Shown here piece by piece: positions 3,966 through 21,304 of a DNA stretch of 64,000 nucleotides. Position numbers and translations under genes: made by a program. Every line of letters starts with the position of its first letter. Within the stretch, counting starts at the first letter, position 1. Origin of the DNA: Claveliimonas bilis (GTDB lineage: Bacteria; Bacillota; Clostridia; Lachnospirales; Lachnospiraceae); NCBI RefSeq assembly GCF_030296775.1, contig NZ_AP027742.1:2356001-2420000 (forward strand), written 5' to 3'. The notes below the pieces were generated by a model. The model did no database searches. It saw only the letters and a list, made by a program, of their open reading frames with translations, and was not told where the DNA came from.

Positions 3966-4105
3966 TCAACCACTTTTTTACATTGTTAGGTAAGATGTTT
4001 TTTACACCGTATGGTAAGGAGTTTTTTACATCCCTTAGTAAGCAGATTTTTACATCGTAAGGTAAGCACTTTTTTACTTTACCCGGTAAGCAGTTTTTTA
4101 CATCC
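3966..4105. repeat. left terminal repeat array of the IS21 element
   Basis: Five to six imperfect copies of a unit like GGTAAGNAGTTTTTTACA, spaced about 27-28 bases apart. These are the presumed IstA binding sites and run up to the istB stop. Confidence 0.8.
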
Positions 4106-4901: not shown

Positions 4902-6472
4902 CGAGCAGCAGCCTCCTTCCTTTCTGTGCGTTCCTGAAAGGCTTTTGCATAAACAGAAAGATCCGTGTAGCTGACACTGCCGGATGGAACCTGGGCACGG
5001 CAGTCGTCTGTGGTCAGTTCCCGGCCGGCTTTTGCAAGACTGTAAACAACTTTAAACTGTGAGAACTGATACCGGTATTTCTGGCAGCATTCCTTCATCA
5101 CCTGCGCTACCAGGGATTTATCCGGATTCTCAGAATCAAGGAACTGTTCAATTGCCCGAAGCTGTTTGGAGATATGCCGTGGATTTTCCTTTTTCACACC
5201 ATTGATGAAGTGCTGGAAGTCATAGCAGTTCCATTTCCCACGGAGACGCTCCATGATCTCGATCCAGTCTCCGGAGTCCTGTTTCCGGTGTTCCGGGAGC
5301 TGATTAACACTTCCCTTCCTCTCGCTGAGATTATGGGAACAGATATAGTTCAGCTGGTCATCATAAATGTGGATCTTCCCACTGACAACTTTGAACTGTA
5401 CCGTTTTGAAAGCATAATCACGTGGAACCGAATACCTGCATGATTTATACAGGACGTAAGGTATTGCCGCGATTTCATAAGTGCGGAATGTATTCGGAGA
5501 TGTTTCATACACGGATGGAAGAAGAGGCCGCATGGCTGACCTTTCAATGCTGTCGTAGACTGCTTTTGGGACCCGTAAGGTAGAACGGTGGATCCGCTGG
5601 TTCTTGCGTTCCAGCCATCCGGGCAGGGAACGCCATACATCATCGATACAGGTGACCTTCCGCGCACTGAAGAAGTTTTTCTTCACGAACCCGACAGAGT
5701 TTTCGATAGGTCCCTTGCTTTCCGGATCCGCTTTATTACACACCCAGAGCCGGATATCCTGTTCAGTACAGAAATCTTCAAAGGTCCTGGTCTTGATGAC
5801 TTCACCATAGGTTTCACTGGCGACAAACACGGCGTCCTGGTCAATGACCAGTTCTTTAGGACGCCCTCCAAGCCTGCAGAAACTACGGTAGATCGCCTTA
5901 CAGGCCTCTTCCGAGTTATACTTGTGATCCTGTGCATAGACGCATAAAAAACGGCTATAACGCAGCAAAAGGCACATGAAATGGATATGCGTTGTTTTTG
6001 AGAGAGTCTCCTCACCGAAGTCAATCAGCATCTGTTCTCCGGGCGGGGTGTCAAAAACATAATCATAGATACGGCGGTGCTCAGGCTCCCTGTTGATCTG
6101 TCCGGAATCCTCAAGATAATGGATGTAGTTCCGGAGCGTCTGTTGGTTCCCGGGAAGTTTCTCATAGTCTCCGTTTTCGATGAATTTTTCTTCCAGAACA
6201 TCGTAAACTGATGACATACAGAACGTTTTTCCGCTGTTTGTTTCAAGGATCCTGATAATCGTACTGCGGAAAGGTTCCGCATCAAAGGTTTTCGGTTTTG
6301 CGAGCTTAGCGCCGGGATCATCCGGGAGCACATCCATGTCATAATACTTGCTGATTGTGGGCCGGCTGGGAGGCTTGCGTCCCTGCGCTTCATAGTATCT
6401 GATAATATCAGCTTTTGTGTAACCTTGCAGTTTTAAATCCTGTATTTCCTGCATTTTTGTTTTTGTCAGCAT
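4898..6472 (-). CDS. istA: IS21 transposase IstA
   Basis: 524-residue DDE transposase. The N-terminus has a helix-turn-helix (about residues 5-45, YTKADIIRYYEAQGRKPP...). An rve integrase core lies around 140-300 with DFGEE (first Asp), IDQDAVF (second Asp) and the ENSVGFVKKNFF segment carrying the Glu. The length is usual for IstA. It starts 208 bases inside the right end of the element and overlaps istB by 4 bases. It appears intact. Confidence 0.95.
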   Translation of the reverse strand: MLTKTKMQEIQDLKLQGYTKADIIRYYEAQGRKPPSRPTISKYYDMDVLPDDPGAKLAKPKTFDAEPFRSTIIRILETNSGKTFCMSSVYDVLEEKFIENGDYEKLPGNQQTLRNYIHYLEDSGQINREPEHRRIYDYVFDTPPGEQMLIDFGEETLSKTTHIHFMCLLLRYSRFLCVYAQDHKYNSEEACKAIYRSFCRLGGRPKELVIDQDAVFVASETYGEVIKTRTFEDFCTEQDIRLWVCNKADPESKGPIENSVGFVKKNFFSARKVTCIDDVWRSLPGWLERKNQRIHRSTLRVPKAVYDSIERSAMRPLLPSVYETSPNTFRTYEIAAIPYVLYKSCRYSVPRDYAFKTVQFKVVSGKIHIYDDQLNYICSHNLSERKGSVNQLPEHRKQDSGDWIEIMERLRGKWNCYDFQHFINGVKKENPRHISKQLRAIEQFLDSENPDKSLVAQVMKECCQKYRYQFSQFKVVYSLAKAGRELTTDDCRAQVPSGSVSYTDLSVYAKAFQERTERKEAAAR

Positions 6473-6548
6473 AAAGGTCTCCTCTCTTGTGTACTGCTTA
6501 CAGTATACAAAATCGGATGAACTGCTGACTCCTCCTGTGATAAAACTC

Positions 6549-6675
6549 GCCGCAGAGGATGTAAAAAAGTTCTTACCGGACGGTGTAAAGAACTTCTTAC
6601 CAACTCATGTAAAAAACTCCTTACCGCGTCATGTAAAAAACTCCTTACCCTGTGGCTGTAAAATCACCTTACCAC
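6549..6675. repeat. right terminal repeat array of the IS21 element
   Basis: Five imperfect copies of TGTAAAAAANTCCTTACC, inverted relative to the left array, upstream of istA. Confidence 0.8.
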
Positions 6676-6680
6676 GCACA

Positions 6681-6841
6681 ACTTTGACTGGAGTCTCATC
6701 GGCCTGCAGCACATGGAAGCGGTACATCCTGTTATGAAGGTAATCATAAAGTGCCCCCAGATACCGGTCGGCACACTGGATCACCCAGTTGGCCATCACC
6801 TGCCGGGAGATGTGGAGTACTCTTAATTGAATGAATTGCAT
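6681..6841 (-). pseudogene. IS66 transposase TnpC core fragment
   Basis: Encodes SRQVMANWVIQCADRYLG followed by HVLQADETPVKV, the signature region of the IS66 DDE transposase. It is cut by the IS21 element after ...VKV, and upstream sequence fitting TnpC is missing. Confidence 0.85.
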
Positions 6842-6925
6842 GAGACCCGGATGTGGATAACTTCCACTGTATCTGCGAGGGCGAACCGGAAAAGATTTTT
6901 AAATTTCTCTGTTTTGCACAACGTA

Positions 6926-7095
6926 TCACAGGAGATTGCTGGGCTGCACTTCCTGGATCGGATGTCTGGATACGATCTCCAGCCCCTGCATCAGCGCCCG
7001 GTATTGTTCCGGCGTGATCTCCAGAGCCTCTTCTTTTGTACGGGACCAGCTGAAGCCGCCCTGTTTTAGCCTTTTGTAAACCTTCCGGAATCCGG
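6926..7095 (-). pseudogene. IS66 accessory protein TnpB, C-terminal fragment
   Basis: The minus-strand frame ending at TGA 6926-6928 reads RFPSGFRKVYKRLKQGGFSW, then RTKEEALEITPEQYRALMQG and ends in QPSNLL-stop, the normal C-terminus of the IS66 TnpB (Orf2) protein. The N-terminal half is absent and the piece is joined out of frame to tnpA. Confidence 0.8.
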
Positions 7096-7449
7096 ATGGA
7101 AAACGGATGATGCATCTGGTAACACAGCAGGAAGTTTGATCTCAGCGAAAGATACGGACTGCTGAACAGTAGATAACTGTCCCGTCTCTATAACTGCGGA
7201 CAGAGACGGATTTTGAGATGCTTCATAAGCTTCCCAGCGCAGGATGCGCTGCCAGTAAAAGAACTGTTTTCCAGAGATTCCGTTTGCCCGGCAGCAGGCG
7301 GTCTTTGGCATCCCGCTGTTCATACATTCATTCAGGATCTTGGTCCAGTGCTCTGCACGGACCTGATGTGTGATTTTATCTATGGCACTAACTCCTTTAA
7401 AAAACTTGTAGTTTTCTGGAGTTATTATCTCATGAGACAAGGAAACTAG
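7066..7449 (-). pseudogene. IS66 accessory protein TnpA, fused remnant
   Basis: The segment RAEHWTKILNECMNSGMPKT and FFYWQRILRWEAYE is the helix-turn-helix region of IS66 TnpA (Orf1). The tail (HPDSGRFTKG) is tnpB sequence read in the wrong frame, so the gene lost its own C-terminus by an internal deletion. Confidence 0.75.
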
Positions 7450-7517
7450 CACGGTACTAGTGATTTACCATATACAAACAAATTACTACATAATAATGAA
7501 TTAAACATATTATTGCT

Positions 7518-7556
7518 TTTCAGGCAAAGAAAACAATATGTTTTCTTTGCCTGAAA
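7518..7556. terminator. perfect hairpin downstream of the RiPP precursor
   Basis: Arms TTTCAGGCAAAGAAAACA at 7518-7535 and the exact complement at 7539-7556, with a 3-base loop, 63 bases after the precursor stop. No long T-run follows on the minus strand. It may act as a transcript end stabiliser or a weak terminator of the RiPP operon. Confidence 0.6.
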
Positions 7557-7618
7557 TTAATTAATTAAACATTCTAATATTACAACAAAAATATACTTTT
7601 AGCGCAGAAATAGAAAAA

Positions 7619-7798
7619 TCATGCTGTAATATTTCTGTCAATATTAGACTTCATGTTTTCACGTAAACTTTCTTTTGCAAGAGCCCACGGATATCCTCCC
7701 GGACCACAATAACAATCGCAATTGATATCACATACGCAATTCTTATACTGCTCTAATGTATTACGATTTTCTTGAATTCTTTTATTTAGTTTCTTCAT
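7619..7798 (-). CDS. Cys-rich RiPP precursor peptide (CLI_3235-class bacteriocin-like)
   Basis: 59-residue peptide, start ATG 7798 after AGGAGG (8-base spacing), stop at 7619. An N-terminal leader rich in K, N, R and E (about residues 1-20, MKKLNKRIQENRNTLEQYKN) is followed by a core with five cysteines at 21, 23, 27, 29 and 31 (CVCDINCDCYC), then GPGGYPW and a hydrophilic tail. Size, Cys spacing and position as last gene of a minus-strand operon with a SPASM radical SAM enzyme, exporter, acyl-carrier-like protein and S8 protease fit the TIGR04065-type 'CLI_3235' Cys-rich peptides. The modified residues, cleavage site and activity are not known. It is shorter than the usual ORF cutoff. Confidence 0.85.
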   Translation of the reverse strand: MKKLNKRIQENRNTLEQYKNCVCDINCDCYCGPGGYPWALAKESLRENMKSNIDRNITA

Positions 7799-7926
7799 TT
7801 CATATTCCTCCTATTTTTATAATGAATGCCTTATTATAAATAACATTATTCAAACTTCTTTAACTCTACTCCTCCTTTCCAAGAATAATTTTATGATTGA
7901 ATAATGTCATATATAGAAACAGTACA

Positions 7927-9438
7927 TTATCCTTCTCCCTGCTTGATCGATACAAATCCTCCATCAATTGCATTTAATACGACGTTTTCTGTGCCCCATT
8001 TAAGAACCTCCCCATCTGAAGTTAATCCTGTCTTTTCTAAATTGAAAACCCACACAGGAACCAACCATACTTTTTCAGGTTCTTCAAATGCATTAATGTT
8101 GGCCGCACGAATCTGTATATTTGTAACATTATATATACATTTTGTACCAGTATCCTTCAGCTCATCTCCATCGTCAGAAAGAGCGGAATACAGCAGGTGA
8201 TCTGCCAGTTTTTCCTTTATTTCATCAAAAGAAAGTAGCTTTGTGTTATTTGCAACTGTATCTATTTTCTTTGACATATTTGTCCAAGCAAATTTTTGAA
8301 CACCATCTTTCGTGATAATGATTTGAATTTTTTCGGAAGAAAATTGTGGGGCGTATACTGTTTCTGGAATTCCTTCTAGTATTTCAGGTGACCGCTGACT
8401 ATATCCCATCAAGTCTCCCAATGTACGATAAAAATAAATTGAAAATCCAACCTCATTAAAGGGATTATCTTCGTCCCATAATACCCATGTTTCTGTATTC
8501 CTATTTCCGATTGCTTTGACACAGCTGCCTACTTCAAACCCTTTTATTGATATTTTATCGAGTAAAGCCTTCGCTTCATTCAAAGCCTCCTCTTCAGATA
8601 GAGATGGTATCTCTTCCATATGTTCTTTTAATGATTTTAGCCAAGCATCATTTTTATTATTGCTATCTAAATTTCCATGAATCAAAGGCATCAGATATTC
8701 TTCATCAATAAACGTACCCTGGGAATACAGAAAATTGGTTGTGCTTCCTAATTTATCGCTATAGCTTATCGCACGGATTAAGGGGTTCTTTTCATTTTCT
8801 TTATCTATTTTGGCTGTGAAACCTAGTTTTTCGTCTGTATCATAATAATAATCACTTACTCCATCATAGAAATCTCTTTCTGTCTGTACCGGCTCCATAA
8901 GAACAGGCTTTATAGAATTCTTTGTTCCCGCTTTTTCTGGAGCTTCATCAATAAGTTGATCCATTTTACTAAGTTGATCCTGCCAATATTGAGTTGATCC
9001 TAATCCACCAGATAACGAAGCCCAAGTCCCCTCATAATTTTCCATTCTCGCTTTTTCCGATTCTAATTCATCTTTTGTCATCTTAGGATATTCATACAAT
9101 GGATTCCCATCTGAAAAATAATCGCATAATTTCTCCAACAATTCATTGGTCAATACTGATTGTTCATAAACATCTACAGGTGTATTGTATATTTCTGGTA
9201 TCTGTGGAGAATAATCTGCTTCTAAAGTAACAAAACCATCGCTTCTTTCAATCTTTTCGTGCCAATGATCAGGAATCTGCAGATCTTTTGGTACATCGTC
9301 ATCTTTTTCCAGAATGCTTTCTTTCGGAATCCCCTCTGATCGGTCAACAACAATTTCTTCTTGTGGCGTTTTAGCACATGCCATTAATCCAGAACTTAAA
9401 CATAGCAAACAAACCAAAATATATGTTTTGTTCTTCAT
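7927..9438 (-). CDS. DUF6034-like secreted lipoprotein of the RiPP locus
   Basis: 503-residue predicted lipoprotein. A signal peptide ends in the lipobox LMAC (lipidated Cys at about residue 21), so the protein is anchored outside the membrane. The rest is hydrophilic with no catalytic motif I recognise. The start PDHWHEKIERSDGFVTLEA resembles the DUF6034 family of Clostridia; this is from memory and unconfirmed. It lies 16 bases after the S8 protease gene and is followed by the precursor. A broken copy of its 3' end lies at 2505-2730 beside an ABC efflux operon. It could be an immunity or sensing component, but nothing in the sequence decides this. Confidence 0.75.
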   Translation of the reverse strand: MKNKTYILVCLLCLSSGLMACAKTPQEEIVVDRSEGIPKESILEKDDDVPKDLQIPDHWHEKIERSDGFVTLEADYSPQIPEIYNTPVDVYEQSVLTNELLEKLCDYFSDGNPLYEYPKMTKDELESEKARMENYEGTWASLSGGLGSTQYWQDQLSKMDQLIDEAPEKAGTKNSIKPVLMEPVQTERDFYDGVSDYYYDTDEKLGFTAKIDKENEKNPLIRAISYSDKLGSTTNFLYSQGTFIDEEYLMPLIHGNLDSNNKNDAWLKSLKEHMEEIPSLSEEEALNEAKALLDKISIKGFEVGSCVKAIGNRNTETWVLWDEDNPFNEVGFSIYFYRTLGDLMGYSQRSPEILEGIPETVYAPQFSSEKIQIIITKDGVQKFAWTNMSKKIDTVANNTKLLSFDEIKEKLADHLLYSALSDDGDELKDTGTKCIYNVTNIQIRAANINAFEEPEKVWLVPVWVFNLEKTGLTSDGEVLKWGTENVVLNAIDGGFVSIKQGEG

Positions 9439-9454
9439 TAGAAATCACCCCCTT

Positions 9455-10561
9455 CTATTCTTGTAATAATAATATCATATCTTTGCATATTGATTCTATT
9501 TCATGTTTACTATAATTGTGTATTACCTGGTTACAGACGGTTAATTTCATGCTATTTCGATACACATGTATCCAGCAACAATCAGTAGTATCTACTATAT
9601 TTGGAAATGTTAAAAGTATATTTGAATTTAATAATAAAAGATCAACATTACGATGAAATGAAATATTTATTTGTTGTTCGAAGTTTTGTTTATTATAATT
9701 TATAATTCTAAAATCATCGCTTGAAGAATTATTGTCTGTAATACATACACATTCATAACCAAATATTTTAGTAAGACAATTTAAAACATTAGAAAATATT
9801 GAAATATCATCTGATTCTATTAAAATAATTGGTGGATTGATAATTTTTTTTGGAAGCAGTGCTTCAGACAGTACATTAATCTGGCGATCATTACAGGTTT
9901 CTCCTTGGGCAAGAAACTGATTTATTAGGTTTCTTGAACATGAAAAACTACTTTCTTCGCATAACGCATCAACTTTATTTAACAAATTTGCCAAAACACG
10001 AGGAGCTGAAAAGCTATTTCCTATATTTGAATCCAAAACTGTCCCACAATCCACATGAAGATCATTATCTGGAATAGCATAGATTTTTTGACAACAAAAA
10101 TGTTCTACAGGTAATGCTATAGTTCCGATCACTTCTTGAAACGCTGCCGGCATAGTAATAAGATTAGCATTACTGCTTGCAGCTATTATAGTAATTCCAC
10201 TGTCATACATTTTTTTAATCAAAGGATATATTTCTTTTTGTTTTGATAATATCGTTGTGCCAATGCTCAAACATAATACATCAATTTGATTAGAAAAAAG
10301 AAATTCTAATGCAATTATGAAATCGTTAATATCTAATTGATTTTTATTCATAATATCAACATGTATTAAAACGTGGTTCTTAGGATTTCTTAAGTTATCG
10401 TTCAAAATCTTGCAGCATAATGTACTATGAGTAGAATTAACTATATCGTTTGTTTGGCATACCGTTTTTACTTGACATTTCGTTATTTTATACTTATGTA
10501 TCTGAGAAAAATCAAGCATTACATTATTATCTAAAGAATCGTCAATTATTCCTATTTTCAT
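9455..10561 (-). CDS. subtilisin-like (S8) peptidase of the RiPP locus
   Basis: 368-residue protein without a signal peptide, so probably cytoplasmic. The subtilase triad is recognisable: Asp7 in IGIIDDS, His45 in STHSTLCCKIL, oxyanion Asn131 in IAASSNAN and Ser183 in GNSFSAP. The catalytic domain covers about 1-200. The remaining ~170 residues are of unknown fold. ATG 10561 was chosen; an in-frame TTG at 10570 is close to GAGGCG and is an alternative. Either start overlaps the ACP-like gene. The ABC exporter lacks a C39 peptidase domain, so this protease is the natural candidate for leader removal, by inference from context. It may instead be a degenerate subtilase. Confidence 0.8.
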   Translation of the reverse strand: MKIGIIDDSLDNNVMLDFSQIHKYKITKCQVKTVCQTNDIVNSTHSTLCCKILNDNLRNPKNHVLIHVDIMNKNQLDINDFIIALEFLFSNQIDVLCLSIGTTILSKQKEIYPLIKKMYDSGITIIAASSNANLITMPAAFQEVIGTIALPVEHFCCQKIYAIPDNDLHVDCGTVLDSNIGNSFSAPRVLANLLNKVDALCEESSFSCSRNLINQFLAQGETCNDRQINVLSEALLPKKIINPPIILIESDDISIFSNVLNCLTKIFGYECVCITDNNSSSDDFRIINYNKQNFEQQINISFHRNVDLLLLNSNILLTFPNIVDTTDCCWIHVYRNSMKLTVCNQVIHNYSKHEIESICKDMILLLQE

Positions 10562-10808
10562 TAATGCCAATCGCCTCTATTTCTGCCGCCAAATTGTTAA
10601 CAGTAAATATTGGGCTATCATTCGTTTCTAAAATTCTGCAAATATTAATTCCATATTTAGTTTCAAGCGTATTAATTAAATATAAGAAATCAACGGTATC
10701 TATTCCAAACTTTTGATCAAGCAAATTATCATTTAAATCTGAAATAGTAATATCAAAAAGAGCACTAATTTCCTCTAACAACATTTTTTTAGCAATATCT
10801 TTTGTCAT
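10542..10808 (-). CDS. acyl carrier-related protein of the peptide maturation system
   Basis: 88-residue protein with the four-helix pattern of acyl carrier proteins. At the usual phosphopantetheine site, where ACPs have DSL, it has DTV (FGIDTVDFLYLI, Thr at about residue 38). The attachment serine is therefore missing and standard loading is unlikely. This fits the family of 'peptide maturation system acyl carrier-related proteins' (TIGR04069-type) seen next to CcpM-type radical SAM enzymes. It overlaps the protease gene and follows the TIGR04066-like gene by 33 bases. Its partner may be that protein or the maturase. Confidence 0.82.
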   Translation of the reverse strand: MTKDIAKKMLLEEISALFDITISDLNDNLLDQKFGIDTVDFLYLINTLETKYGINICRILETNDSPIFTVNNLAAEIEAIGINENRNN

Positions 10809-10841
10809 ATATATACCCCCTGTATATTTTTTACAAATGAT

Positions 10842-11906
10842 CTAAATTATCTCAGGATTTTCATTTAAAAGGGAAGTTAATTCATCTATGAATGTTTCAA
10901 TCCCTTTTTTATCGTCTGGAAGTAAGACAATATTGCTGTTCACAATTTCTGTTGGCAAATTTTCTTTACAAAACTTGTTAGAATAGAAATTATATTCTAC
11001 TTTTTCTTCCTCGGTATTTACATTATAAGTTTGATTACAGATATAGAATTTAATAATATCCACGCCCAATCGTAACTTACACAACTTTTTCATTTCATCA
11101 AAATATTTATCCGTATAGTATTTACTATAATGTATACAGAGAACACCATAATCACTTATTATTGCATTAGATAAAACATATGAAATTTCTCCAAAATAAT
11201 TGTGTTCATAATCATTTAATGTCATTATCCCACTAGGGCAACTAATCAGTATTATGTCAGGAAGTTTTTGCTCAGCTAAGTCACAAATAAAACTATTGGC
11301 TCGTTTAACTTTTAGAGGCAGAGATATATCATCCGCATATAAAAAATCAGGTAATACGTCACAATTAAATAACCTTGCAAGTGGATTCCCAGAAATTACT
11401 AAAACGCTATATCCTTTATCCTCTAAAACTTTTTTTACTGATAATATCAAAGAAAACTTATCACAATTTTCACCATCTCCTAATATAGAGATAACTGGGC
11501 ATGTCACTTTTCGTAATTTTTTTGACGAAGTACAAATTCTATTGTTATAGCTATTTAGAATTGTTGTCTCAGCATCTTTAAATACTTCAACTCCCAGCCA
11601 TTTATAGATAAAGCTGCTAGTGTATATTGGTATATTTTTTCGAATGGCTTCATTAATTCGATTAATATATGCTTTTTTGCCCATTTTTTGCACATTATCA
11701 CATAAAATCAAGACATCGCAATCCATAAGGGCTTTTTCGGAATCATTTGTGTAAATGCTATTTTTTTGAACTTCTATTTCATTTTCTTTATATGTAACTA
11801 TAAAACTTATTTCATATTTTTTTAATTCCTTGGAGTGTTCATAGATTACATTCGACTCATAATTTGCAGGGAACAATACAATTTTTCTCTTACTATTCTC
11901 ACTCAT
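10842..11906 (-). CDS. TIGR04066-like peptide maturation system protein
   Basis: 354-residue cytoplasmic protein starting MSENSKRKIVLFPANYESN. It has alternating Rossmann-like segments (for example VTCPVISILGDGENCDKFSL near 165 and DIILISCPSGIM near 235), consistent with a nucleotide-binding fold, but no catalytic motif that I can name. It matches the 'peptide maturation system protein, TIGR04066 family' found in clostridial CLI_3235 loci. ATG 11906 has GGAGG six bases upstream. Before the IS4-family insertion the radical SAM frame ended at 11899, overlapping this start by 8 bases, so the two were coupled. The insertion now separates this gene from its promoter. Confidence 0.78.
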   Translation of the reverse strand: MSENSKRKIVLFPANYESNVIYEHSKELKKYEISFIVTYKENEIEVQKNSIYTNDSEKALMDCDVLILCDNVQKMGKKAYINRINEAIRKNIPIYTSSFIYKWLGVEVFKDAETTILNSYNNRICTSSKKLRKVTCPVISILGDGENCDKFSLILSVKKVLEDKGYSVLVISGNPLARLFNCDVLPDFLYADDISLPLKVKRANSFICDLAEQKLPDIILISCPSGIMTLNDYEHNYFGEISYVLSNAIISDYGVLCIHYSKYYTDKYFDEMKKLCKLRLGVDIIKFYICNQTYNVNTEEEKVEYNFYSNKFCKENLPTEIVNSNIVLLPDDKKGIETFIDELTSLLNENPEII

Positions 11907-11993
11907 CATGATCCTCCTCGTGAAAATGATATCCATTTTCTATCAAAACACATAATTCTTTTAAATTATACAAAGTATCATTTATACTCGTTT

Positions 11994-12000
11994 TACAACT
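11994..12000. repeat. target site duplication TACAACT (left) of the IS4-family element
   Basis: TACAACT at 11994-12000 is repeated at 13573-13579, immediately outside the inverted ends of the element. Confidence 0.85.
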
Positions 12001-12157
12001 CTTGAGTTTCCGCAAACTGCATTAAAAAGATAGATATGTCTTCCTAAAGTACCAATCTGCTGTTTTTTGAGAAATTTAGAATGGCAGCACCGAGAATAGA
12101 GGCACTTTTATAAGCCCCGTCGGAACCGGGCTTGGGGAGATATATTCTTTTATCTAT

Positions 12158-13411
12158 TCAAACGGTCAGCTTAAGGCAGAGTTGACGGTTCACTGGACGT
12201 TTTGTCCTGTACCAGAGCCGGATGCCCTCTTTTGCATATGACAGTATGCCGAAGATGCCTTTTGCCAACCGATAATAGCAGAAACTGACTTTCTCCTTGA
12301 TTGGATTAGCTTCCTGTATGATTGAAACTTTCAGGGGGTTTGTATCAGGACTTAATTCTTCCTGCGCTAAAAATGCCATGGCTAAAGTAATATAAAAGTT
12401 AAGCGCATTAATGGCTTCCAGTTTCCTTACACGGAAGTTTTCAAACTGATAGGTCTGCTTTTTACAACGAAAATATTCCTCGATCCGCCATCTGGAAAAG
12501 TAGGTTCTGGCAATGCGGATCACATCATCCTTTGAACGGATCTCTTTGTTTGTAGCCAGCATCATGGGATGTTCCGTGATCCCATAGACCAGGACCAGAT
12601 AGATATCCTTCCGGGAGGCAGTGATATGAACTTTTACGTGGGAAAGATATGCGGTATGTCTTTTTCCTTTATAGAAAACATCCGCTTTTACTTTTCCTTT
12701 CCTCCGGTTCCGCAGTTCCGTTGCCTTTGTCCATTTATTGTGATAAAGAAGTTTCCGGTTGGATTTCAGACGGATCACGTAATTCTGCTTCAGATGGTCG
12801 AGGACGAGAAATATCTTATTGTCATCATAACCGCGGTCCATAACAAAGGTGGCCTTCCCAAAAAGAGCAGCTGCCTGTTTGATCGCATCAAACGTGATGG
12901 TGTTTACAGATTTATAGTCCTTCTCAGCAGAAGAATGGATCATGGAAAAAACACTGACAGGATGCTTGCTGGCAGTCAGGGCACAGGCCTCTGTTACATG
13001 GTATCCTTTTTTATAAACACTTTTCGTCTGTGTGCTTTCAGAACCATCGCGAATGATACCAAGAGCTTCAAACTGTTTTCCATCTGGTTTTACGATATCA
13101 CTTTCATCAATGAGGACCACTGGTTCAGAGGGAACGCGTCTCTTTACGGTATGGAGATAAGAAGCAGCCGCAGAAGCCGGCGTTCCTTCTGAAAGATGAT
13201 TGGAAAGCCGTTTTACAGTATTGGCTTTCTGTACTGTTTCATGAAGCTGGTCGGAAATATCAGTGAGCAGGCAGCTTCTGGATGCCAGAATGCCATAAAC
13301 CATATCTGCTGTGAACTTTCGGTCTGGTTTCGAAAGTCTGCGGGAGATTTTATTAGTAAAAGTCAAAATTTTTCTTTTCAAACGATAAGTAGTTGATGTA
13401 GAATTAGCCAT
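12158..13411 (-). CDS. IS4-family DDE transposase
   Basis: 417-residue transposase that catalyses cut-and-paste movement of the element. Acidic residues occur in VLIDESDI and FVMDRGYDD. The C-terminal segment YFSRWRIEEYFRCKK fits the IS4 signature Y-2-R-3-E-6-K. The start at 13411 follows AAAGGGGA. The gene is full length and fills nearly the whole element. Its start region is in an inverted repeat that could hide the ribosome site when transcription enters from outside. Confidence 0.92.
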   Translation of the reverse strand: MANSTSTTYRLKRKILTFTNKISRRLSKPDRKFTADMVYGILASRSCLLTDISDQLHETVQKANTVKRLSNHLSEGTPASAAASYLHTVKRRVPSEPVVLIDESDIVKPDGKQFEALGIIRDGSESTQTKSVYKKGYHVTEACALTASKHPVSVFSMIHSSAEKDYKSVNTITFDAIKQAAALFGKATFVMDRGYDDNKIFLVLDHLKQNYVIRLKSNRKLLYHNKWTKATELRNRRKGKVKADVFYKGKRHTAYLSHVKVHITASRKDIYLVLVYGITEHPMMLATNKEIRSKDDVIRIARTYFSRWRIEEYFRCKKQTYQFENFRVRKLEAINALNFYITLAMAFLAQEELSPDTNPLKVSIIQEANPIKEKVSFCYYRLAKGIFGILSYAKEGIRLWYRTKRPVNRQLCLKLTV

Positions 13412-13493
13412 AAGGAATCCCCTTTCTTTTTTGTTTAGTAAAGTTTTTGTTTGGTAGCTTAATTTTACATCAAAAAGGAACAGGATTCCTTAT
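13410..13493 (-). promoter_or_regulatory. inverted repeat that can sequester the transposase start
   Basis: ATAAGGAATCC at 13410-13420 covers the spacer between ribosome site and ATG; its exact complement lies at 13483-13493. mRNA reading in from the flanking operon would contain both arms and could close the start, while a transcript begun between them would not. Such protection from read-through is known in other insertion sequences. Here it is inferred from pairing only. Confidence 0.55.
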
Positions 13494-13567
13494 ATTTTGG
13501 ACATTTTTTGAAAGTTGTGGATAACAAAACGCAGCATATTTGTCTTAGGGGATAATTCTGCGGAAAC

Positions 13568-14899
13568 TCAAGTACAACTACATAACTTTCCTTCGCATGT
13601 TAATTTATTATTTGTAGGCTCAACTTGTCCTACACACATTCTACATAAACGTAAATTCCAACATTCCAAACATTCTTTTTCTGTCAATTGACCGATGTTC
13701 AAAATATAACGCATTTTATTATAATCAAATCCCTTTTCAACACTTCCTATCTTCATTCCTTGAACATTTTCACTAACTCTTTCGCATGGATAAAAATCTC
13801 CTGAAGTGTCTACAAACAACCTTCTTACCCCAGGGATGCATGGACCACCGTGATGCATTGCTTCCAGTTCTATATAATGTTGATGAGTCTCTTTATAAAA
13901 AAGTTCTATTGCTCTATGATCTGTAATATATAAGGGGTGTATATATTTCCGATCAATTTTTCCCAATAAGTATAGCAATACCTTTAAGTGTTCATATCTG
14001 TGTGGAATCCAAAATGAATCATTTACTTTAAGTAATCCATTATTTGATACACCTGTTTCATTTAACATACTTAATCTGACTTGAATAGGATTGAATAACT
14101 TTGAATTAGCGAAATAGTCTAAAACATTTTTTAAATCCGCTTTTGGATTGATGACGGTATTATATCTTACAGTAGAAAAAAATTCTTCGTCATACTTTTT
14201 TATTTTGTTTAAATTTCGAACGATTACATCAAAAGAACCTTGCCCATTTCTAAATTTACGATTTACATCGTGTTCTTCTTTTTTGCCGTCTAAACTGATT
14301 GTAACTGCAAATTTATGTTTTGCTAAAAAGCTAATAACCTCTTCTGATAATAAAGTTCCGTTAGTAGTTATAAAAAAACTCAATTCTTTATCCTGAACTT
14401 TTCCCTCGGCATACTCTACGCATTTTTTGATGAGCGGAAACTCTAATAATGGCTCTCCTCCGTAAAAAGCAATAATTAATTTATCTGAATCTATAGAATG
14501 TTCAAAATAAAAATCTATTGCTTCCCGTGCTATCTCCCAAGACATTCTTTTGTCTGAATGTCCTCTATTATAATAATTACCCGAATATGTACAATAGAAG
14601 CATCTTAAGTTGCATTGCTGCGTCACTTGTAATATTAGTTCTTTTAATTGCTTGTTTGCATAATATTCAATATCATCGGAAGAGGGGTGAATTATTTTTT
14701 TTGTAATCTTCTTCTGCAATAATCCTTTTTGTAAATATTTGTCTAATTCCCTGCAATTATTTGGAATTTTCCCATCTCGTTCGACATTTTTTAAGATTTT
14801 GTATTCCTCAGGATTTACGCAAACTACTGAATTTGTGTGTCGATCATAGAAATAATACTTTTTTAATGTTGAAAAACATTTTATTACAATTTCTCCCAT
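13568..14899 (-). CDS. SPASM radical SAM peptide maturase (CcpM-like), C-terminally truncated
   Basis: 443 residues as it stands. The radical SAM cluster is CNLRCFYC (Cys 96, 100, 103), followed by GGEP and a TIM-barrel region. Cysteines at about 345 and 365 and the groups CLECWNLRLCRMC and CEGKLCSC form the SPASM/twitch auxiliary-cluster domain. An N-terminal domain of ~80 residues fits leader binding. The family is that of Cys-rich peptide maturases (CcpM, TIGR04068-type), so its substrate should be the peptide at 7619-7798. ATG 14899 is preferred; GTG 14905 is possible. The IS4-family insertion supplies the stop: the original frame continued 31 codons to 11899. All visible cluster cysteines remain, but activity is uncertain. 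Confidence 0.9.
   Translation of the reverse strand: MGEIVIKCFSTLKKYYFYDRHTNSVVCVNPEEYKILKNVERDGKIPNNCRELDKYLQKGLLQKKITKKIIHPSSDDIEYYANKQLKELILQVTQQCNLRCFYCTYSGNYYNRGHSDKRMSWEIAREAIDFYFEHSIDSDKLIIAFYGGEPLLEFPLIKKCVEYAEGKVQDKELSFFITTNGTLLSEEVISFLAKHKFAVTISLDGKKEEHDVNRKFRNGQGSFDVIVRNLNKIKKYDEEFFSTVRYNTVINPKADLKNVLDYFANSKLFNPIQVRLSMLNETGVSNNGLLKVNDSFWIPHRYEHLKVLLYLLGKIDRKYIHPLYITDHRAIELFYKETHQHYIELEAMHHGGPCIPGVRRLFVDTSGDFYPCERVSENVQGMKIGSVEKGFDYNKMRYILNIGQLTEKECLECWNLRLCRMCVGQVEPTNNKLTCEGKLCSCT
13573..13579. repeat. target site duplication TACAACT (right) of the IS4-family element
   Basis: Second copy of the 7-bp duplication. It lies inside codons of the radical SAM gene (AGT TGT A..). Confidence 0.85.
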
Positions 14900-14984
14900 A
14901 GACACCTTCTCCCTTCTTTATATAGATACTTTTATAATTGTTTCCATCCTTAACATATTCAACTTCTTCTAATTAATTTATTGA

Positions 14985-15332
14985 CTATTTCTTTTGGATT
15001 TTATGACATTTAATCTCATATATTTTGTCTAAATTTTCTAGATTTTCTGCTTTATGGGTAACAATTATCACAGTTTTATTATTACATTTTTGAAAAATAT
15101 AATTGTGAATAAAACTGTCATATATCCGATCTATATTTGAAGTGGCTTCATCCATTATAATAATTTTTGCATCTTTGACTATTGCTCGTATGAAGGCAAC
15201 TTTTTGACGCTCCCCGCCGGATAAATTTCCTCCGTTTCTATCAAGTATCGTATTCAATCCTTGTGGCAAACTTTGAATAAACTTTTCTAACTTTAATTCT
15301 TCTATTATTTGCCAGAGTTGACTATCAGTCAT
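14985..15332 (-). CDS. C-terminal part of the RiPP ABC exporter ATPase (split gene)
   Basis: 115 residues holding the rest of the nucleotide-binding domain: signature LSGGERQ, Walker B IIIMDEATS and the H-loop VTHK. It starts at an ATG that overlaps the stop of the upstream part in ATGA, directly after seven A residues. Alone it lacks Walker A and cannot be an ATPase. It could work as a separately translated half, or be joined to the first part by -1 slippage on the A7 run (GGA AAA AAA TGA becoming GGA AAA AAA ATG). A simple inactivating one-base deletion, or a sequencing error in the homopolymer, is also possible. Confidence 0.85.
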   Translation of the reverse strand: MTDSQLWQIIEELKLEKFIQSLPQGLNTILDRNGGNLSGGERQKVAFIRAIVKDAKIIIMDEATSNIDRIYDSFIHNYIFQKCNNKTVIIVTHKAENLENLDKIYEIKCHKIQKK

Positions 15333-16594
15333 TTTTTTCCTAAAAGAATATTATTTCGCAAAGTATCTCTGAATAAATATATGTCTTGACTTATAACACT
15401 AAATAATTGACGATAACAATTAAGTTTTACTTCTCCAATATCAACGCCATCTATTAAAATTTGTCCCTTTTGTGGATGATAAAATTGTAATAGAAGTTGA
15501 ATTAAGGTTGATTTACCTGAACCATTATCTCCTATAAGGGCTATTCTTTCACCTTTCTTAATTGTTAATGAAATATCATTTAAAACAGGATGATTTTTAT
15601 CATAATAAAAACTAACATTATTAAAAATGATTTCTTTATCAAAATTTTTTATTTCACGATATCCGCTTAATGTTTGCTCGTTTTCCAGTTTTTTTAATTT
15701 TTGCAACCTTTTGATAGATGGTTTTATTTGTGCAAGCAAGAATTTCAAATTAAAAATCAAAGCTATAGGACCAATTACATAAGAACTGTATGTAATAAAT
15801 GCAGTTAAACTACCTACGGTCATTTCGTTGATACAAACAAAATAACCTCCTACGCCATAAAGGAATCCAGTGATAATCCATTGCAACAAAGTATCTCCTG
15901 CCAAATTAAATGAATTTAAGAGATTACCTTCTTTGAGAAACTTGAGATTATATTTTTGATATTTTATCAATTCTTTTTTCTTTATTTTAAATAAATTCCA
16001 TAATTTAATTTCAGCAATTCCATTTAATGTATCATCAAACCATCCGGAAAAATCGGAATAATATTTTAAAATACATTCTGTGTTTTGCTCTCTTTTATTT
16101 GAAAAAAAAGTAATTAAACAAAATTTTATTGGTACTGCAAGAAGAACAAAGATAGCAAGTTTCCAATTAATTACAAATAATCCAGCAACTCCACTCAATA
16201 TCTGCAATAAATAGCTTACTGTATTTATCAAGCCACTATTAAATAACGAACTAATATTGTCTATATCTGATGTAATTCTGTTAATAATTTCAGAAGAATT
16301 ATTATTTTTAAAATAAGCCACTTTAAGATTCAATAAATAGCTAAAATATTTGTAATACAGCCTTAATACAATCCAATTTTGTATATTTACATAAACCGAA
16401 GTTTGTAAAATACTAATCCCAGATTCTATAATAGATAATCCAACTAGTATAATAGAACATACTATTACGACACTAAAAGTTTTTCCTACTAATCCAGTAT
16501 CAACAATTTTCTGAATAACTAATGGACGGCCAAATGCAATAATTACTGTGATTACATAACAAAAAAATATCTCTATAATCCATCTCTTTTTCAT
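15329..16594 (-). CDS. RiPP ABC exporter, membrane domain and N-terminal ATPase part (split gene)
   Basis: 421 residues: six membrane helices of the ABC exporter type-1 fold (about 1-285) and the first part of the nucleotide-binding domain, with Walker A GDNGSGKS and a Q-loop (VISQDIYLF). There is no N-terminal C39 peptidase, so leader cleavage must be done elsewhere, probably by the S8 protein. The frame stops at TGA right after an A7 tract, just where the ATPase should continue. It is the first gene of the RiPP operon, about 90 bases downstream of a good promoter. Expected role: export of the matured peptide, possibly also self-protection. Confidence 0.88.
   Translation of the reverse strand: MKKRWIIEIFFCYVITVIIAFGRPLVIQKIVDTGLVGKTFSVVIVCSIILVGLSIIESGISILQTSVYVNIQNWIVLRLYYKYFSYLLNLKVAYFKNNNSSEIINRITSDIDNISSLFNSGLINTVSYLLQILSGVAGLFVINWKLAIFVLLAVPIKFCLITFFSNKREQNTECILKYYSDFSGWFDDTLNGIAEIKLWNLFKIKKKELIKYQKYNLKFLKEGNLLNSFNLAGDTLLQWIITGFLYGVGGYFVCINEMTVGSLTAFITYSSYVIGPIALIFNLKFLLAQIKPSIKRLQKLKKLENEQTLSGYREIKNFDKEIIFNNVSFYYDKNHPVLNDISLTIKKGERIALIGDNGSGKSTLIQLLLQFYHPQKGQILIDGVDIGEVKLNCYRQLFSVISQDIYLFRDTLRNNILLGKK
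15332..15338 (-). other. A7 tract at the exporter frame break
   Basis: The minus strand reads GGAAAAAAATGA. The upstream frame ends at TGA and the downstream frame starts at the overlapping ATG. One extra A, or a -1 slip, gives a single 535-residue exporter. Confidence 0.75.
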
Positions 16595-16683
16595 ATGATA
16601 CGCCTTACACGATTTTTATTACGATTGTTGTTGAGTAATCCACTTATAACCTTGTCATCTATGCGATAATTTATTTTTAATAT

Positions 16684-16712
16684 ATTATATAATATCAAGT
16701 CATTATTTTCAA
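16684..16712 (-). promoter_or_regulatory. sigma-70 type promoter of the RiPP operon
   Basis: On the minus strand, TTGAAA (16712-16707), 17 bases, TATAAT (16689-16684). It lies about 90 bases upstream of the exporter start. The surroundings are very A+T rich, but both boxes and spacing are near consensus. Confidence 0.6.
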
Positions 16713-16990
16713 TATATTTTTAACATATTAAATTATATACTAATAATAAATTAAATCAATTGAATTTTACACATTATATTCAAATTTAAATTAATATTAA
16801 AGGAAATATCGAAATTTAATTTACTGCTTTAGATTGCTAAGGTTTTCAGCACAAAATTATTAAAGATTACGGAAATAAAGCAATAAGATGTTATTATTGA
16901 TTATTCAATATTTTTATATTATTAAATAGTGAAATATAAATAATAATGTGTTATTATAATAATATATAACGGTTGCAAAGGAGGATAAAA
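16713..16990. promoter_or_regulatory. A+T-rich divergent control region with dyad at 16940-16957
   Basis: The gap between the RiPP operon (minus) and the BlaI operon (plus) holds no gene. A dyad ATAATAA-TGTG-TTATTAT at 16940-16957 lies just upstream of the blaI-like ribosome site (AAAGGAGG, 16977-16984). It is a candidate operator for autoregulation by the BlaI-type protein. Low complexity makes chance occurrence possible. Confidence 0.35.
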
Positions 16991-17365
16991 ATGATTAAGT
17001 TAACACGAAGGCAGGAAGATATCATGAAAATATTGTGGGAATCGGACAAACCATTAATTGCATCAGAAATCGAAAAAAAGCAGGATGATCTTAATATTAA
17101 TACTGTCCAGGCTACGCTCCGAGCTCTTATGAAGAAAAATGCCATTGAAGTTGCAGACATTGTTTATAGTGGAACTGTATTGTCCAGAAGCTATAGGCCA
17201 ATTATAAGTCGGGATCAGGTTATCACAGAATATGATCAGGTAGTTAGTAAGGTATTAAATGATAAGAACCTGATTGCACATTATGTGGATGAAATTAACG
17301 ATCTGGCTGCTATTACAGAATTAGAAAAAATAATCAAAGAAAAAAGGAAAAAATTGGAGAAATAA
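16991..17365 (+). CDS. BlaI/MecI-family transcriptional repressor
   Basis: 124-residue winged-helix repressor. The N-terminal part (ITKLTRRQEDIMKILW-like start, then NTVQATLRALMKK) is the BlaI/MecI DNA-binding domain, and the C-terminal helices serve dimerisation. Such repressors are inactivated when a partner M56 membrane peptidase senses a signal and triggers cleavage. ATG 16991 follows AAAGGAGGATAAAA. The M56 gene begins 4 bases after its stop, so they form an operon. With no beta-lactamase nearby, the target is more likely its own operon with the small secreted protein, and perhaps the divergent RiPP operon. Confidence 0.88.
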   Translation: MIKLTRRQEDIMKILWESDKPLIASEIEKKQDDLNINTVQATLRALMKKNAIEVADIVYSGTVLSRSYRPIISRDQVITEYDQVVSKVLNDKNLIAHYVDEINDLAAITELEKIIKEKRKKLEK

Positions 17366-17368
17366 TAT

Positions 17369-18514
17369 ATGCGCTTAGTTTCTTTTGGATCCCTTTTGAT
17401 ATGTTTTTTGTCAATTATTGTTCTGACTATATATATGTATTTAACTTTAAACAGGGCAAAAGGCATTTTGATCTGTTACCTAAAACCTATATTTGTTTTG
17501 TCAGCCATTATTATGCTTCGAATGCTGATACCTGTTAATTTTCCATTTACCTATTCCTTTCGCGGAGCAAAAATCATGAATGCTGTAGGGAATATTGTAT
17601 ACATTAAAATAACCGAAACTGTAAATATTTTTGATATAATGCTGGGCATTTGGTTCATAGGAGCAGTCATCCAGATTATTCGTTATATACTAAAAAGAAA
17701 AAAAGTATATACCTATATTACCCCCTATATCCTGTCAGCAGAAGAAGTAAAAGAATCTGAATATTATTATTTGTTAAATACATATAAACAAAGCAAAATG
17801 CAAGTAGCTTGTGTACCAGAAAATGTTAGTCCTTCTATCTTTGGTATCTTTCATCCAATTATTATTTTTCCACAAAATATTGTTTCTTCAAAGGACTTAC
17901 ATTTTATTTTATCACATGAAATACAACATTATCGTAACTTTGATTTACATTTAAAAGTTATACTTGATTTATTAGTTGCAGTGCATTGGTGGAATCCTTT
18001 TGTATATATGCTAAGAAAGAAATATAATAGTGCAATAGAATTTTCAAATGACTATATGGTATCCAGGCAATTAAATGAAACTGAAAAAATAGAATATGCA
18101 GAATCACTTCTGAATATTGCAAAGATACCATTTTCAGACAAATCCTTCGACCTTTCATTAGTTGAGAACGCTAATTTTAAAAAAAGAATCTCTCTGCTTG
18201 TAGAAAATGCTAATGTTGCTAACAGCAGGAAAATGGTCACCTTGATTTTAAATATTATGTTTATTTCAATAATAATGTTTATTTCTTTGTTTTTTGTTCC
18301 AGAGGCAGATTACAGTAAAGAAGCAGAGGAAGTTTTTAAAGAAGCAGGCGCATTCAGTATTACTCCAGATAACGCTTATATAGTAACTGCCATTGATGGT
18401 TATAAATTATATATGAATGGAGAATTTATCGGTACAATGACCAGTATACCGGAGGATTTAAAGGAGGTTCCAATTTATGAAGAGAAAACTATTAATCAAA
18501 AGTCTGGTGACTAA
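17369..18514 (+). CDS. M56 family (BlaR1-type) membrane metallopeptidase
   Basis: 381-residue membrane protein. Four or so N-terminal membrane helices carry the zinc-site motif HEIQH (LSHEIQHYRN, about residues 190-194). A further helix near 285-310 is followed by only ~70 extracellular residues. It lacks the penicillin-binding sensor domain of true BlaR1, so its signal differs from beta-lactams. It is expected to pass an outside signal to the BlaI-type repressor encoded 4 bases upstream. The last 38 bases overlap the next gene in another frame. Confidence 0.88.
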   Translation: MRLVSFGSLLICFLSIIVLTIYMYLTLNRAKGILICYLKPIFVLSAIIMLRMLIPVNFPFTYSFRGAKIMNAVGNIVYIKITETVNIFDIMLGIWFIGAVIQIIRYILKRKKVYTYITPYILSAEEVKESEYYYLLNTYKQSKMQVACVPENVSPSIFGIFHPIIIFPQNIVSSKDLHFILSHEIQHYRNFDLHLKVILDLLVAVHWWNPFVYMLRKKYNSAIEFSNDYMVSRQLNETEKIEYAESLLNIAKIPFSDKSFDLSLVENANFKKRISLLVENANVANSRKMVTLILNIMFISIIMFISLFFVPEADYSKEAEEVFKEAGAFSITPDNAYIVTAIDGYKLYMNGEFIGTMTSIPEDLKEVPIYEEKTINQKSGD

Positions 18515-18716
18515 TTTGCTGGTATTAACAATGCTTTTTCCTTGTTATACAGCATATGCGCAACAACCGATTACTAATCCAATCTCAAAAGAAGAATCAC
18601 AAATAGGAAAGGCAAATAGATATGTGTGGAAGTATAAAGAGATTAACGGAAAGATTTATAAAAGATTATATGACCTTACTGAAAACAGATGGATTGGTGA
18701 CTGGATCTTAGTATAA
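18477..18716 (+). CDS. small secreted protein downstream of the M56 peptidase
   Basis: 79 residues. MKRKLLIKSLVTNLLVLTML then FPCYTAYA is a clear Sec signal peptide with cleavage expected after AYA (about residue 28). The mature ~50 residues are hydrophilic with aromatic repeats (KANRYVWKYKEINGKIYKRL) and no cysteine. GGAGG precedes the ATG, which lies inside the end of the M56 gene, so the two are translationally coupled. Function unknown. As third gene of a BlaI/M56 operon it may be the signal, a co-sensor, or a defence factor. Confidence 0.75.
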   Translation: MKRKLLIKSLVTNLLVLTMLFPCYTAYAQQPITNPISKEESQIGKANRYVWKYKEINGKIYKRLYDLTENRWIGDWILV

Positions 18717-18762
18717 TCAAATATTATATCAATCTCTCAAATGTGCGTTGTCTTTATAAATA

Positions 18763-18797
18763 GTTAGCTCCTTTCAAATAAAAAATCAGGAGCTAAC
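18763..18797. terminator. hairpin with perfect 10-bp stem after the BlaI operon
   Basis: GTTAGCTCCT (18763-18772) pairs with AGGAGCTAAC (18788-18797) across a 15-base loop. No strong T-run follows on the plus strand, so termination is only suggested by position. Confidence 0.45.
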
Positions 18798-18816
18798 AGG
18801 GTCACAACCTATAATA

Positions 18817-18860
18817 AGAGACAGGCCTCCTTTTATGCAAGCATAAGGAGTCCTGCCTCT
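18817..18860. terminator. bidirectional terminator between the BlaI operon and leuS
   Basis: Long hairpin with arms AGAGACAGGCCTCCTT and AAGGAGTCCTGCCTCT (one mismatch/bulge), loop around TTATGCAAGCAT, T-rich on the plus-strand side. It ends 18 bases before the leuS stop codon. Confidence 0.75.
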
Positions 18861-18877
18861 TCTTTTATCCGCACAGC

Positions 18878-21304
18878 TTACTTCTGTACAATATTTATAA
18901 TTCTTCCCGGCACATAGATTTCCTTTACAATGGTTCCGGTCAGTTTGTCTTTGACAGCTTCTTTTCCTTTCTCCAGGGCTTCTTCTTTAGAAATCTCTGC
19001 AGGAAGTGATACGACTGCTCTTGTTTTTCCATTGATCTGGACAGCGATCTCAATCTCATCGTCCTTCATTGCTTCTTTATCGTAAGACGGCCATCCTGCA
19101 TGGAATACAGTCTCTTCATGCCCCAGCTCTTCCCACATTTCCTCTGCCATATGAGGTGCAAACGGAGCAAGGAGCACAGCCAGAGCTTCCAATGTCTCTT
19201 TGTCTATGCCGCCGGCTTTCTTCGCGATCTCTGTCAGCTTGTTTGTATGTTCCATAAATGCGGAAATAACTGTATTGAGGCTGAAGCTCTCCAGACGAGT
19301 TGTAACATCATAAATCAGTTTATGACGTTCTTTTACCATATCCTTTGACGCCTCGATCTCTTTCTCCTTGCTGTCCTGAAGGAGGTTCCATACTTTCTTC
19401 AGGAAACGATATACTCCGTCGATTCCTCTGTCATCCCACTCGGCATCCAGTTCCGGCGGACCTACAAACAGCTCATACATTCTAAGAGAATCGCATCCGT
19501 AATCTCTTACCAGATCATCCGGAGATACGACATTTCCTTTGGATTTGCTCATCTTGATACCATTCTTTCCGGTGATCATTCCCTGATTGAACAGCTTTGT
19601 AAACGGCTCGTCAAAATCGATCACTCCGATATCACACAGGAATTTTGTGTAAAATCTGGAATAGAGCAGATGGAGCACCGCATGCTCTACTCCGCCGATA
19701 TACATATCTACCGGAAGCAGCGCATCTGCCTTCTCCCTTGATACAAGCTCCTCGCTGTTGTGATTATCCACATAGCGCAGGAAATACCAGGAAGATCCTG
19801 CCCACTGCGGCATGGTATTTGTCTCTCTCTTAGCTGGTTTTCCACATACCGGACACTTGCAGTTTACCCATTCCTCGATACCTGCAAGCGGAGATTCTCC
19901 TGTACCTGTAGGCTCATAGGACTCCACATCCGGCAGACGGAGCGGCAGCTCCTCTTCCGGTACCGGCACAGCGCCGCAGTCCGGACAGTGTACGATCGGG
20001 ATCGGTTCTCCCCAGTAACGCTGACGGGAAAATACCCAGTCACGCAGCTTGTAATTTACCGTAGCTCGTCCGATTCCTTTTTTCTCTATAATATGCGGGC
20101 CTTCCTTTTTCAGCACAGAAGATTCCATTCCGTTCCACTCTCCGGAATTGATCATGATTCCTGATGCCTCGGTATATGCCTCTGTCATATTTTCTATTTC
20201 TTTGCCGTCTTTGGAAATAACCTGAACGATCGGGATTCCGAATTTGGTAGCAAATTCAAAGTCGCGGTCATCATGGGCAGGTACGCACATGATCGCTCCT
20301 GTACCATAATCCGCCAGTACATAATCGGACAGCCAGATCGGTGTCTTCTCTCCGTTCAGCGGGTTGATGGCATAACTTCCTGTAAAAACGCCTGTCTTCT
20401 CCTTATCCTGCAGACGATCCACGTTTGACTTCATGGATGCCTCATAAATATACTGGTCAACCGCCTCTTTATATTCCGGTGTAGCGAGCTCTGCCGCCAG
20501 CTTATGTTCCGGAGCAAGTACCATGAAAGTAGCGCCGTACAGCGTATCCGGTCTTGTGGTGTAGACTGTGATCTTATCGTCCCGTCCTTCTACCGGGAAA
20601 TCCACTTCCGCTCCGTAGGATTTACCGATCCAGTCAGACTGCATCTTTTTCACTTTCTCCGGCCAGTCAAGCTTGTCCAGATCATTTAAAAGACGCTCTG
20701 CATAAGCGGTGATCTTCAGCATCCACTGACGGAGGTTTTTCTTCGTCACTTCCGTACCGCATCTTTCACATTTTCCGTTTACAACCTCTTCATTTGCAAG
20801 ACCTGTCTTACAGGACGGACACCAGTTGATCGGAAATTCTTTTTCATATGCCAGACCCTCTTTGAACATTTTCACAAAGATCCACTGTGTCCATTTATAA
20901 AATTCCGGGTCCGTTGTATTGACTTCCATATCCCAGTCATACAACGCTGCGATCTGGTTGATCTGCTCTTTGATGTGCTTTACATTTTCTGCAGTAGATT
21001 TTGCCGGATGTACTCCCATCTTGATCGCATAGTTTTCTGCCGGAAGTCCGAACGCATCCCATCCCATGGGATGAATAATATAATATCCCTGCAATAATTT
21101 GTATCTGCTCCACACATCAGAAATAACATATCCTCTCCAGTGTCCTACGTGGAGGCCATTTCCTGATGGATACGGAAACATATCCAGGCAGTAATATTTC
21201 TCGCGCTCTTTGCCAGTCTTATCTACTTTGACGTTAACTGGATTTTTCTCCCAGTTTTCCCGCCATTTTTTCTCAATCGCCTTATGATTATAAGGTACAG
21301 CCAT
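18878..21304 (-). CDS. leuS: leucyl-tRNA synthetase
   Basis: 808-residue class I aminoacyl-tRNA synthetase that charges tRNA-Leu. The HIGH motif reads HVGH (in GNGLHVGHWRGY, about residues 49-60), the KMSKS motif is exact (KMSKSKGN), and the editing (CP1) domain and zinc-binding cysteine pairs (CPSCKTG, CERCG) lie between. Length is normal for bacterial LeuS. AGGAGGAATGAATA precedes the ATG. A consensus-like promoter lies 90 bases upstream and no T-box leader was found in the short 5' region. Confidence 0.97.
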   Translation of the reverse strand: MAVPYNHKAIEKKWRENWEKNPVNVKVDKTGKEREKYYCLDMFPYPSGNGLHVGHWRGYVISDVWSRYKLLQGYYIIHPMGWDAFGLPAENYAIKMGVHPAKSTAENVKHIKEQINQIAALYDWDMEVNTTDPEFYKWTQWIFVKMFKEGLAYEKEFPINWCPSCKTGLANEEVVNGKCERCGTEVTKKNLRQWMLKITAYAERLLNDLDKLDWPEKVKKMQSDWIGKSYGAEVDFPVEGRDDKITVYTTRPDTLYGATFMVLAPEHKLAAELATPEYKEAVDQYIYEASMKSNVDRLQDKEKTGVFTGSYAINPLNGEKTPIWLSDYVLADYGTGAIMCVPAHDDRDFEFATKFGIPIVQVISKDGKEIENMTEAYTEASGIMINSGEWNGMESSVLKKEGPHIIEKKGIGRATVNYKLRDWVFSRQRYWGEPIPIVHCPDCGAVPVPEEELPLRLPDVESYEPTGTGESPLAGIEEWVNCKCPVCGKPAKRETNTMPQWAGSSWYFLRYVDNHNSEELVSREKADALLPVDMYIGGVEHAVLHLLYSRFYTKFLCDIGVIDFDEPFTKLFNQGMITGKNGIKMSKSKGNVVSPDDLVRDYGCDSLRMYELFVGPPELDAEWDDRGIDGVYRFLKKVWNLLQDSKEKEIEASKDMVKERHKLIYDVTTRLESFSLNTVISAFMEHTNKLTEIAKKAGGIDKETLEALAVLLAPFAPHMAEEMWEELGHEETVFHAGWPSYDKEAMKDDEIEIAVQINGKTRAVVSLPAEISKEEALEKGKEAVKDKLTGTIVKEIYVPGRIINIVQK

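Follow-up and report, generated by a model that had tools for sequence, protein, structure and literature searches.

Recent insertion of an ISPepr1-like IS4-family element at the 3' end of the ccpM maturase gene in a CLI_3235-type RiPP operon of Claveliimonas bilis

The nearest studied cluster to the operon described here is the SacP23 cluster of Paenibacillus polymyxa #23, which specifies a bacteriocin and has been heterologously expressed (PMC10731318). The likeness extends to a CLI_3235 precursor, an ABC transporter, TIGR04068, TIGR04066, and TIGR04069 proteins, and a subtilisin-like protease (PMC10731318). For the radical SAM maturase CcpM (TIGR04068), the closest solved structure by both sequence (4e-53 with a family profile) and fold is CteB, a SCIFF/thioether maturase (PDB 5WGG and 5WHY). 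The published SPASM motif is CX2CX5CX3C (PMC6231123). Among insertion sequences, the ISPepr1 subgroup of IS4 was defined by De Palmenaer et al. in 2008, with a length of 1500 to 1600 bp, 5'-CT ends, target repeats of 7 to 8 bp, and a YREK motif as its traits, and with D(60-110)D(100-150)E and Y(2)R(3)E(6)K as the criterion for the transposase (PMC2266710).

We analyzed a stretch of 64,000 nucleotides from the genome of Claveliimonas bilis (contig NZ_AP027742.1, positions 2,356,001 to 2,420,000; here called the window). By its gene content, the operon in the window is a RiPP operon of the CLI_3235 type, as genes for TIGR04065, TIGR04066, and carrier-like proteins lie beside ccpM, the carrier-like one being recognized weakly (Table 1). 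The gene order from the transporter through ccpM and the TIGR04066 and carrier genes to the gene for the S8-like protein is conserved in another genome of the genus (L074), and partial versions of it were found elsewhere in the family, in other genera. Relatives of the S8-like protein occur in several operons of the CLI_3235 type.

Table 1. Features of the operon and of the insertion sequence, in window coordinates
Feature	Position	Strand	Evidence or remark
CLI_3235-family Cys-rich precursor peptide, 59 aa	7619..7798	-	TIGR04065 37.4 bits, cut-off 26
DUF6034 protein	7927..9438	-	PF19499 99.9 bits
Subtilase-like (S8-type) protein	9455..10570	-	Weak: NF049966 37.9 bits, PF00082 21.5 bits, both below cut-off
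Acyl-carrier-like protein	10542..10808	-	Weak TIGR04069 20.6 bits, cut-off 70; position conserved in L074
TIGR04066-family peptide maturation protein	10842..11906	-	TIGR04066 215 bits, cut-off 200
Displaced ccpM 3' end (31 codons + stop, minus duplicated-target bases)	11899..11993	-	Continuous with ccpM in c-25
Target duplication TACAACT, copy 1, 7 bp	11994..12000	.	Single copy in c-25
Insertion sequence	12001..13572	- (transposase strand, same orientation as operon)	Inverted ends, empty c-25 site, two further 100% identical copies
Terminal inverted repeat CTTGAGTTTCCGCA	12001..12014	.	14/14 complementary to 13559-13572
DDE transposase, 417 aa	12158..13411	-	Pfam PF01609 2e-16
Hairpin, transposase 5' leader	13410..13493	-	Covers ribosome-binding site and start codon
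Terminal inverted repeat, other end	13559..13572	.	Source of maturase premature TGA (13570-13568)
Truncated ccpM radical SAM/SPASM maturase, 443 aa (residues 1-442 + one Thr)	13568..14899	-	TIGR04068
Target duplication TACAACT, copy 2, 7 bp	13573..13579	.	Single copy in c-25
ABC transporter C-terminal fragment, 115 aa	14985..15332	-	Signature motif and Walker B; joined in c-25
ABC transporter N-terminal fragment, 421 aa	15329..16594	-	Frameshifted; 536-aa single ORF in c-25
A7 tract (A8 in c-25), frameshift	15332..15338	-	Comparison with c-25

The insertion sequence is 1572 bp long, and the coordinates given for it in a sequence-only reading of this DNA all hold. That reading had described a recent and precise insertion removing 31 maturase codons and had predicted a 473-residue maturase with a given C-terminus in a sister strain lacking the element. 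We rely here on C. bilis c-25 (NZ_AP024845.1), which was scored as belonging to the species of the window genome; it was the one close relative found by a protein search of contigs representing one genome per species, and the within-species comparison is with this one sister strain. Its maturase is 100% identical over the shared residues. The alignment of the window with c-25 breaks exactly at the insertion sequence, where the two flanks share the 7 duplicated bases. Strain c-25 has a single TACAACT and an uninterrupted maturase of 473 amino acids, read from an ATG and ending in CSCKTSINDTLYNLKELCVLIENGYHFHEEDHDE, as predicted. Its stop codon corresponds to window position 11899, and the next gene starts at ATG 11906, with an 8-base overlap, or at ATG 11909; the frame proposed for the element-free site is present in c-25 letter for letter. 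Together with the homolog alignment described below, this empty site proves that the insertion was recent and precise and removed 31 codons while sparing every SPASM cysteine.

The window genome contains three copies of the element that are 100% identical. The other two are both intergenic and are flanked by the 8-bp repeats GGATTTGC and ATATTCTC. All three sites are empty in c-25, and a search of the c-25 genome for the element found no copy. Within the genus, three further genomes carry copies with 94-95% identity, and the plasmid collection yielded no match to the element. A solitary 24-bp end of the element, the remainder of which is missing, was observed at L004 (G000:C1:1578524-1578547). 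A literature search on the species returned no paper bearing on this locus.

Between about 6.4 and 18.9 kb, the stretch that bears the operon differs from c-25 by three substitutions, one indel, and the insertion sequence and by nothing else. In the adjoining leuS gene, about 2 kb contain 32 substitutions, and divergence over much of the surrounding sequence is about 1-3%. The near-identity of the operon stretches indicates a very recent common ancestor of the two operon copies, with the insertion sequence arriving later; this recent ancestry is perhaps owed to exchange between strains. Window positions 1 to about 4000 and 6400 to 18900 are near-identical to c-25 and resemble a recently exchanged block. 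Between them, the IS21-like transposition genes at 4001-6000 (with an rve/Mu C-terminal domain and an ATPase-like protein) carry 78 substitutions relative to c-25, and represent either a different copy or gene conversion within the near-identical block.

The element had been assigned to the IS4 family, and its traits fit the ISPepr1 subgroup. Its length, its CTTGAG ends, and its target repeats of 7, 8, and 8 bp fall within the published range, and the transposase has the expected D-D-E spacing (D102, D192, and E311) and the motif Y304-(2)-R307-(3)-E311-(6)-K318. The likeness to ISPepr1 is incomplete at the ends, which agree with the published consensus at 6/8 fixed positions. The transposase scored under every curated NCBIfam IS4 cut-off, the best match being NF033591 with 55.9 bits against a cut-off of 152; these cut-offs are a curated naming rule outside the family definition (PMC2266710), and the models may not cover the ISPepr1 subgroup. 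The family call thus rests on traits and not on a curated model; despite the sub-cut-off score, it is supported by the YREK motif and the spacing of the D-D-E residues, and also by the element's size and its duplications of 7-8 bp. The hairpin over the transposase start has a predicted RNA fold of -23.3 kcal/mol (z of -3.9 versus shuffles). Hairpins covering a start codon are a known route by which insertion sequences avoid translation from outside transcripts.

The window maturase reads EGKLCSCT at its end and then TGA, which confirms that its in-frame stop codon lies inside the inverted end of the element. Both the truncated allele (541 bits, profile positions 1-440 of 462) and the intact c-25 allele (558 bits, positions 1-461) exceed the TIGR04068 equivalog cut-off of 500 bits. 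The window allele stops at position 440 and does not reach the full-length C-terminus at profile position 461-462. Judged from these alignments, the window maturase is a truncated allele of a CcpM member and not a separate family. We aligned 22 family members, namely, c-25 and 21 homologs from other genomes. The 22 sequences share ten invariant cysteines: C96, C100, and C103 of the radical SAM CX3CX2C motif and C354, C372, C410, C413, C419, C422, and C442 of a seven-cysteine SPASM domain, in which the spacing is CX2CX5CX2C. C442 is the last of them, and the element enters one codon later, so that all ten are kept; the claim that every SPASM cysteine lies upstream of the insertion was borne out. 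None of the 22 members ends at C442, and the shortest tail, in L062, has about 18 residues. The truncation therefore withstood the search for intact homologs with an equally early end, as 22/22 extend beyond C442. The residues L, Y/L/I, C, V/L, L, E, G, Y/C, and F recur as a pattern after C442, and the lost tail is moderately conserved, below the level of the core. C457 was rejected as a cluster ligand, since it is present in 14/22 members and replaced by I, L, or T in the others.

In an AlphaFold model of the c-25 maturase (mean pLDDT of 72.8 and pTM of 0.80), residues 441-461 form a helix. The input included distant rows from viral contigs, and confidence in the tail is moderate, with block means of about 73-75 over 441-460 and lower values beyond. 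Model residues 3-464 align to CteB, up to CteB residue 450, with a Z score of 28.4 over 402 residues. The alignments with anSMEcpe and ChlB extend to model residues 462-466 and meet the last residues of those chains. These alignments indicate that the deleted part corresponds to the closing helix of solved SPASM enzymes; residues 443-473 would thus make up the C-terminal helix which, in these relatives, comes after the last SPASM cysteine. A single 726-aa frame at L059:727-2907 (-) is a fusion of CcpM to a TIGR04066 domain (TIGR04066 140 bits, residues 441-721), which suggests that the CcpM C-terminus lies near its TIGR04066 neighbor protein. In the window strain, the ccpM and TIGR04066 genes are separated by the insertion sequence.

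A second lesion, absent from the sequence-only reading, was found in the transporter gene just upstream of ccpM. The A8-to-A7 change is the sole indel besides the insertion sequence within the operon, and it breaks the 536-aa protein in two, with Walker A on the first fragment and the signature motif on the second. The reading frame of the second fragment begins with an ATG that overlaps the stop codon of the first, behind an AGGA-like site. The A7 tract could be a homopolymer sequencing or assembly error; if the frameshift is real, export and maturation are both damaged.

It had also been suggested that the insertion may leave the maturase partly active and may cut transcription of the four downstream genes and the precursor gene. 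We found no convincing terminator within the element; the lone operon-strand terminator-like site in it (13179-13165) is weak, and the region contains 4 such sites where chance predicts 4.1. Promoter-like sites were also near chance (64 versus 54.5, standard deviation of 9.3). Because the transposase is co-oriented with the operon as well, polarity is weakened as a prediction; a transcription block of the downstream genes is possible, though the sequence lends it no support beyond general polarity.

We consider it highly probable that an ISPepr1-like IS4 element recently hit the 3' end of ccpM, with loss of the C-terminal helix, and that this loss, combined with a frameshifted transporter, has probably shut the pathway down. 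A cut-and-paste DDE element transposed into ccpM with duplication of 7 bp, and 31 codons (residues 443-473) were lost while every invariant cysteine survived. The insertion also abolished the overlap by which ccpM is joined to the following gene. Without its C-terminal helix, the truncated CcpM is likely unstable or much less active, as we infer from the helix of the solved relatives. With both ccpM truncated and the transporter frameshifted, there is a good chance that the peptide pathway is off in the window strain. That the truncated maturase instead remains functional, with the insertion close to neutral, is unlikely. The protein retains its seven SPASM and three radical SAM cysteines, and the tail, which is short in L062, shows lower conservation than the core; these points would be in line with such a neutral insertion. 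However, every aligned member has residues with a recurring pattern after C442, the tail is included in the curated TIGR04068 model, and solved relatives keep the equivalent helix. The broken transporter also argues against a working pathway.

Two further explanations concern the direction and permanence of the change. The interrupted gene could be ancestral and the gene in c-25 derived by excision, as cut-and-paste elements are able to leave a site. This is hardly credible, since the single TACAACT of c-25 carries no footprint, its genome is without any copy of the element, all three sites are empty there, and ccpM homologs in other genera are uninterrupted; we rejected it on the single TACAACT and the element-free c-25 genome. 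It is also conceivable that the operon is not decaying but is reversibly switched, with slippage in the transporter's A8 tract and excision of the element as the mechanisms. The A7/A8 difference falls in a homopolymer, the second transporter fragment can restart at the overlapping ATG, and the element is intact and precisely inserted. However, this explanation is very improbable: two strains were compared, nothing shows both states within one strain, and precise excision of cut-and-paste insertion sequences is normally rare. A population-level variant, in which A7/A8 slippage and movement of the element combine with a helix-less CcpM of changed activity, is most improbable.

An insertion sequence disrupting a biosynthetic gene is a common event, and this case is an ordinary disruption. 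The two strains are a natural near-isogenic pair, with operons that differ by a few substitutions, one insertion sequence, and one homopolymer indel, and are modestly useful as such: they could reveal whether peptide maturation depends on the C-terminal helix of CcpM and at what pace peptide operons of this kind disappear. The window protein is like CcpM (TIGR04068) in its score (541 versus 500 bits), its N-terminal domain alignable to CteB, its radical SAM core, and its seven-cysteine SPASM domain, and the TIGR04066 and CLI_3235 precursor genes are its neighbors as in that family. Unlike CcpM, it lacks the last 31 residues and has one Thr in their place. CteB has a helix after the last SPASM cysteine, as the intact protein is predicted to have, but it is about 24% identical and acts on another precursor family, and the CcpM tail is longer. 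Compared to the SacP23 cluster, the window operon has a broken maturase and a broken transporter, an added DUF6034 gene, and the precursor gene at its 3' end.
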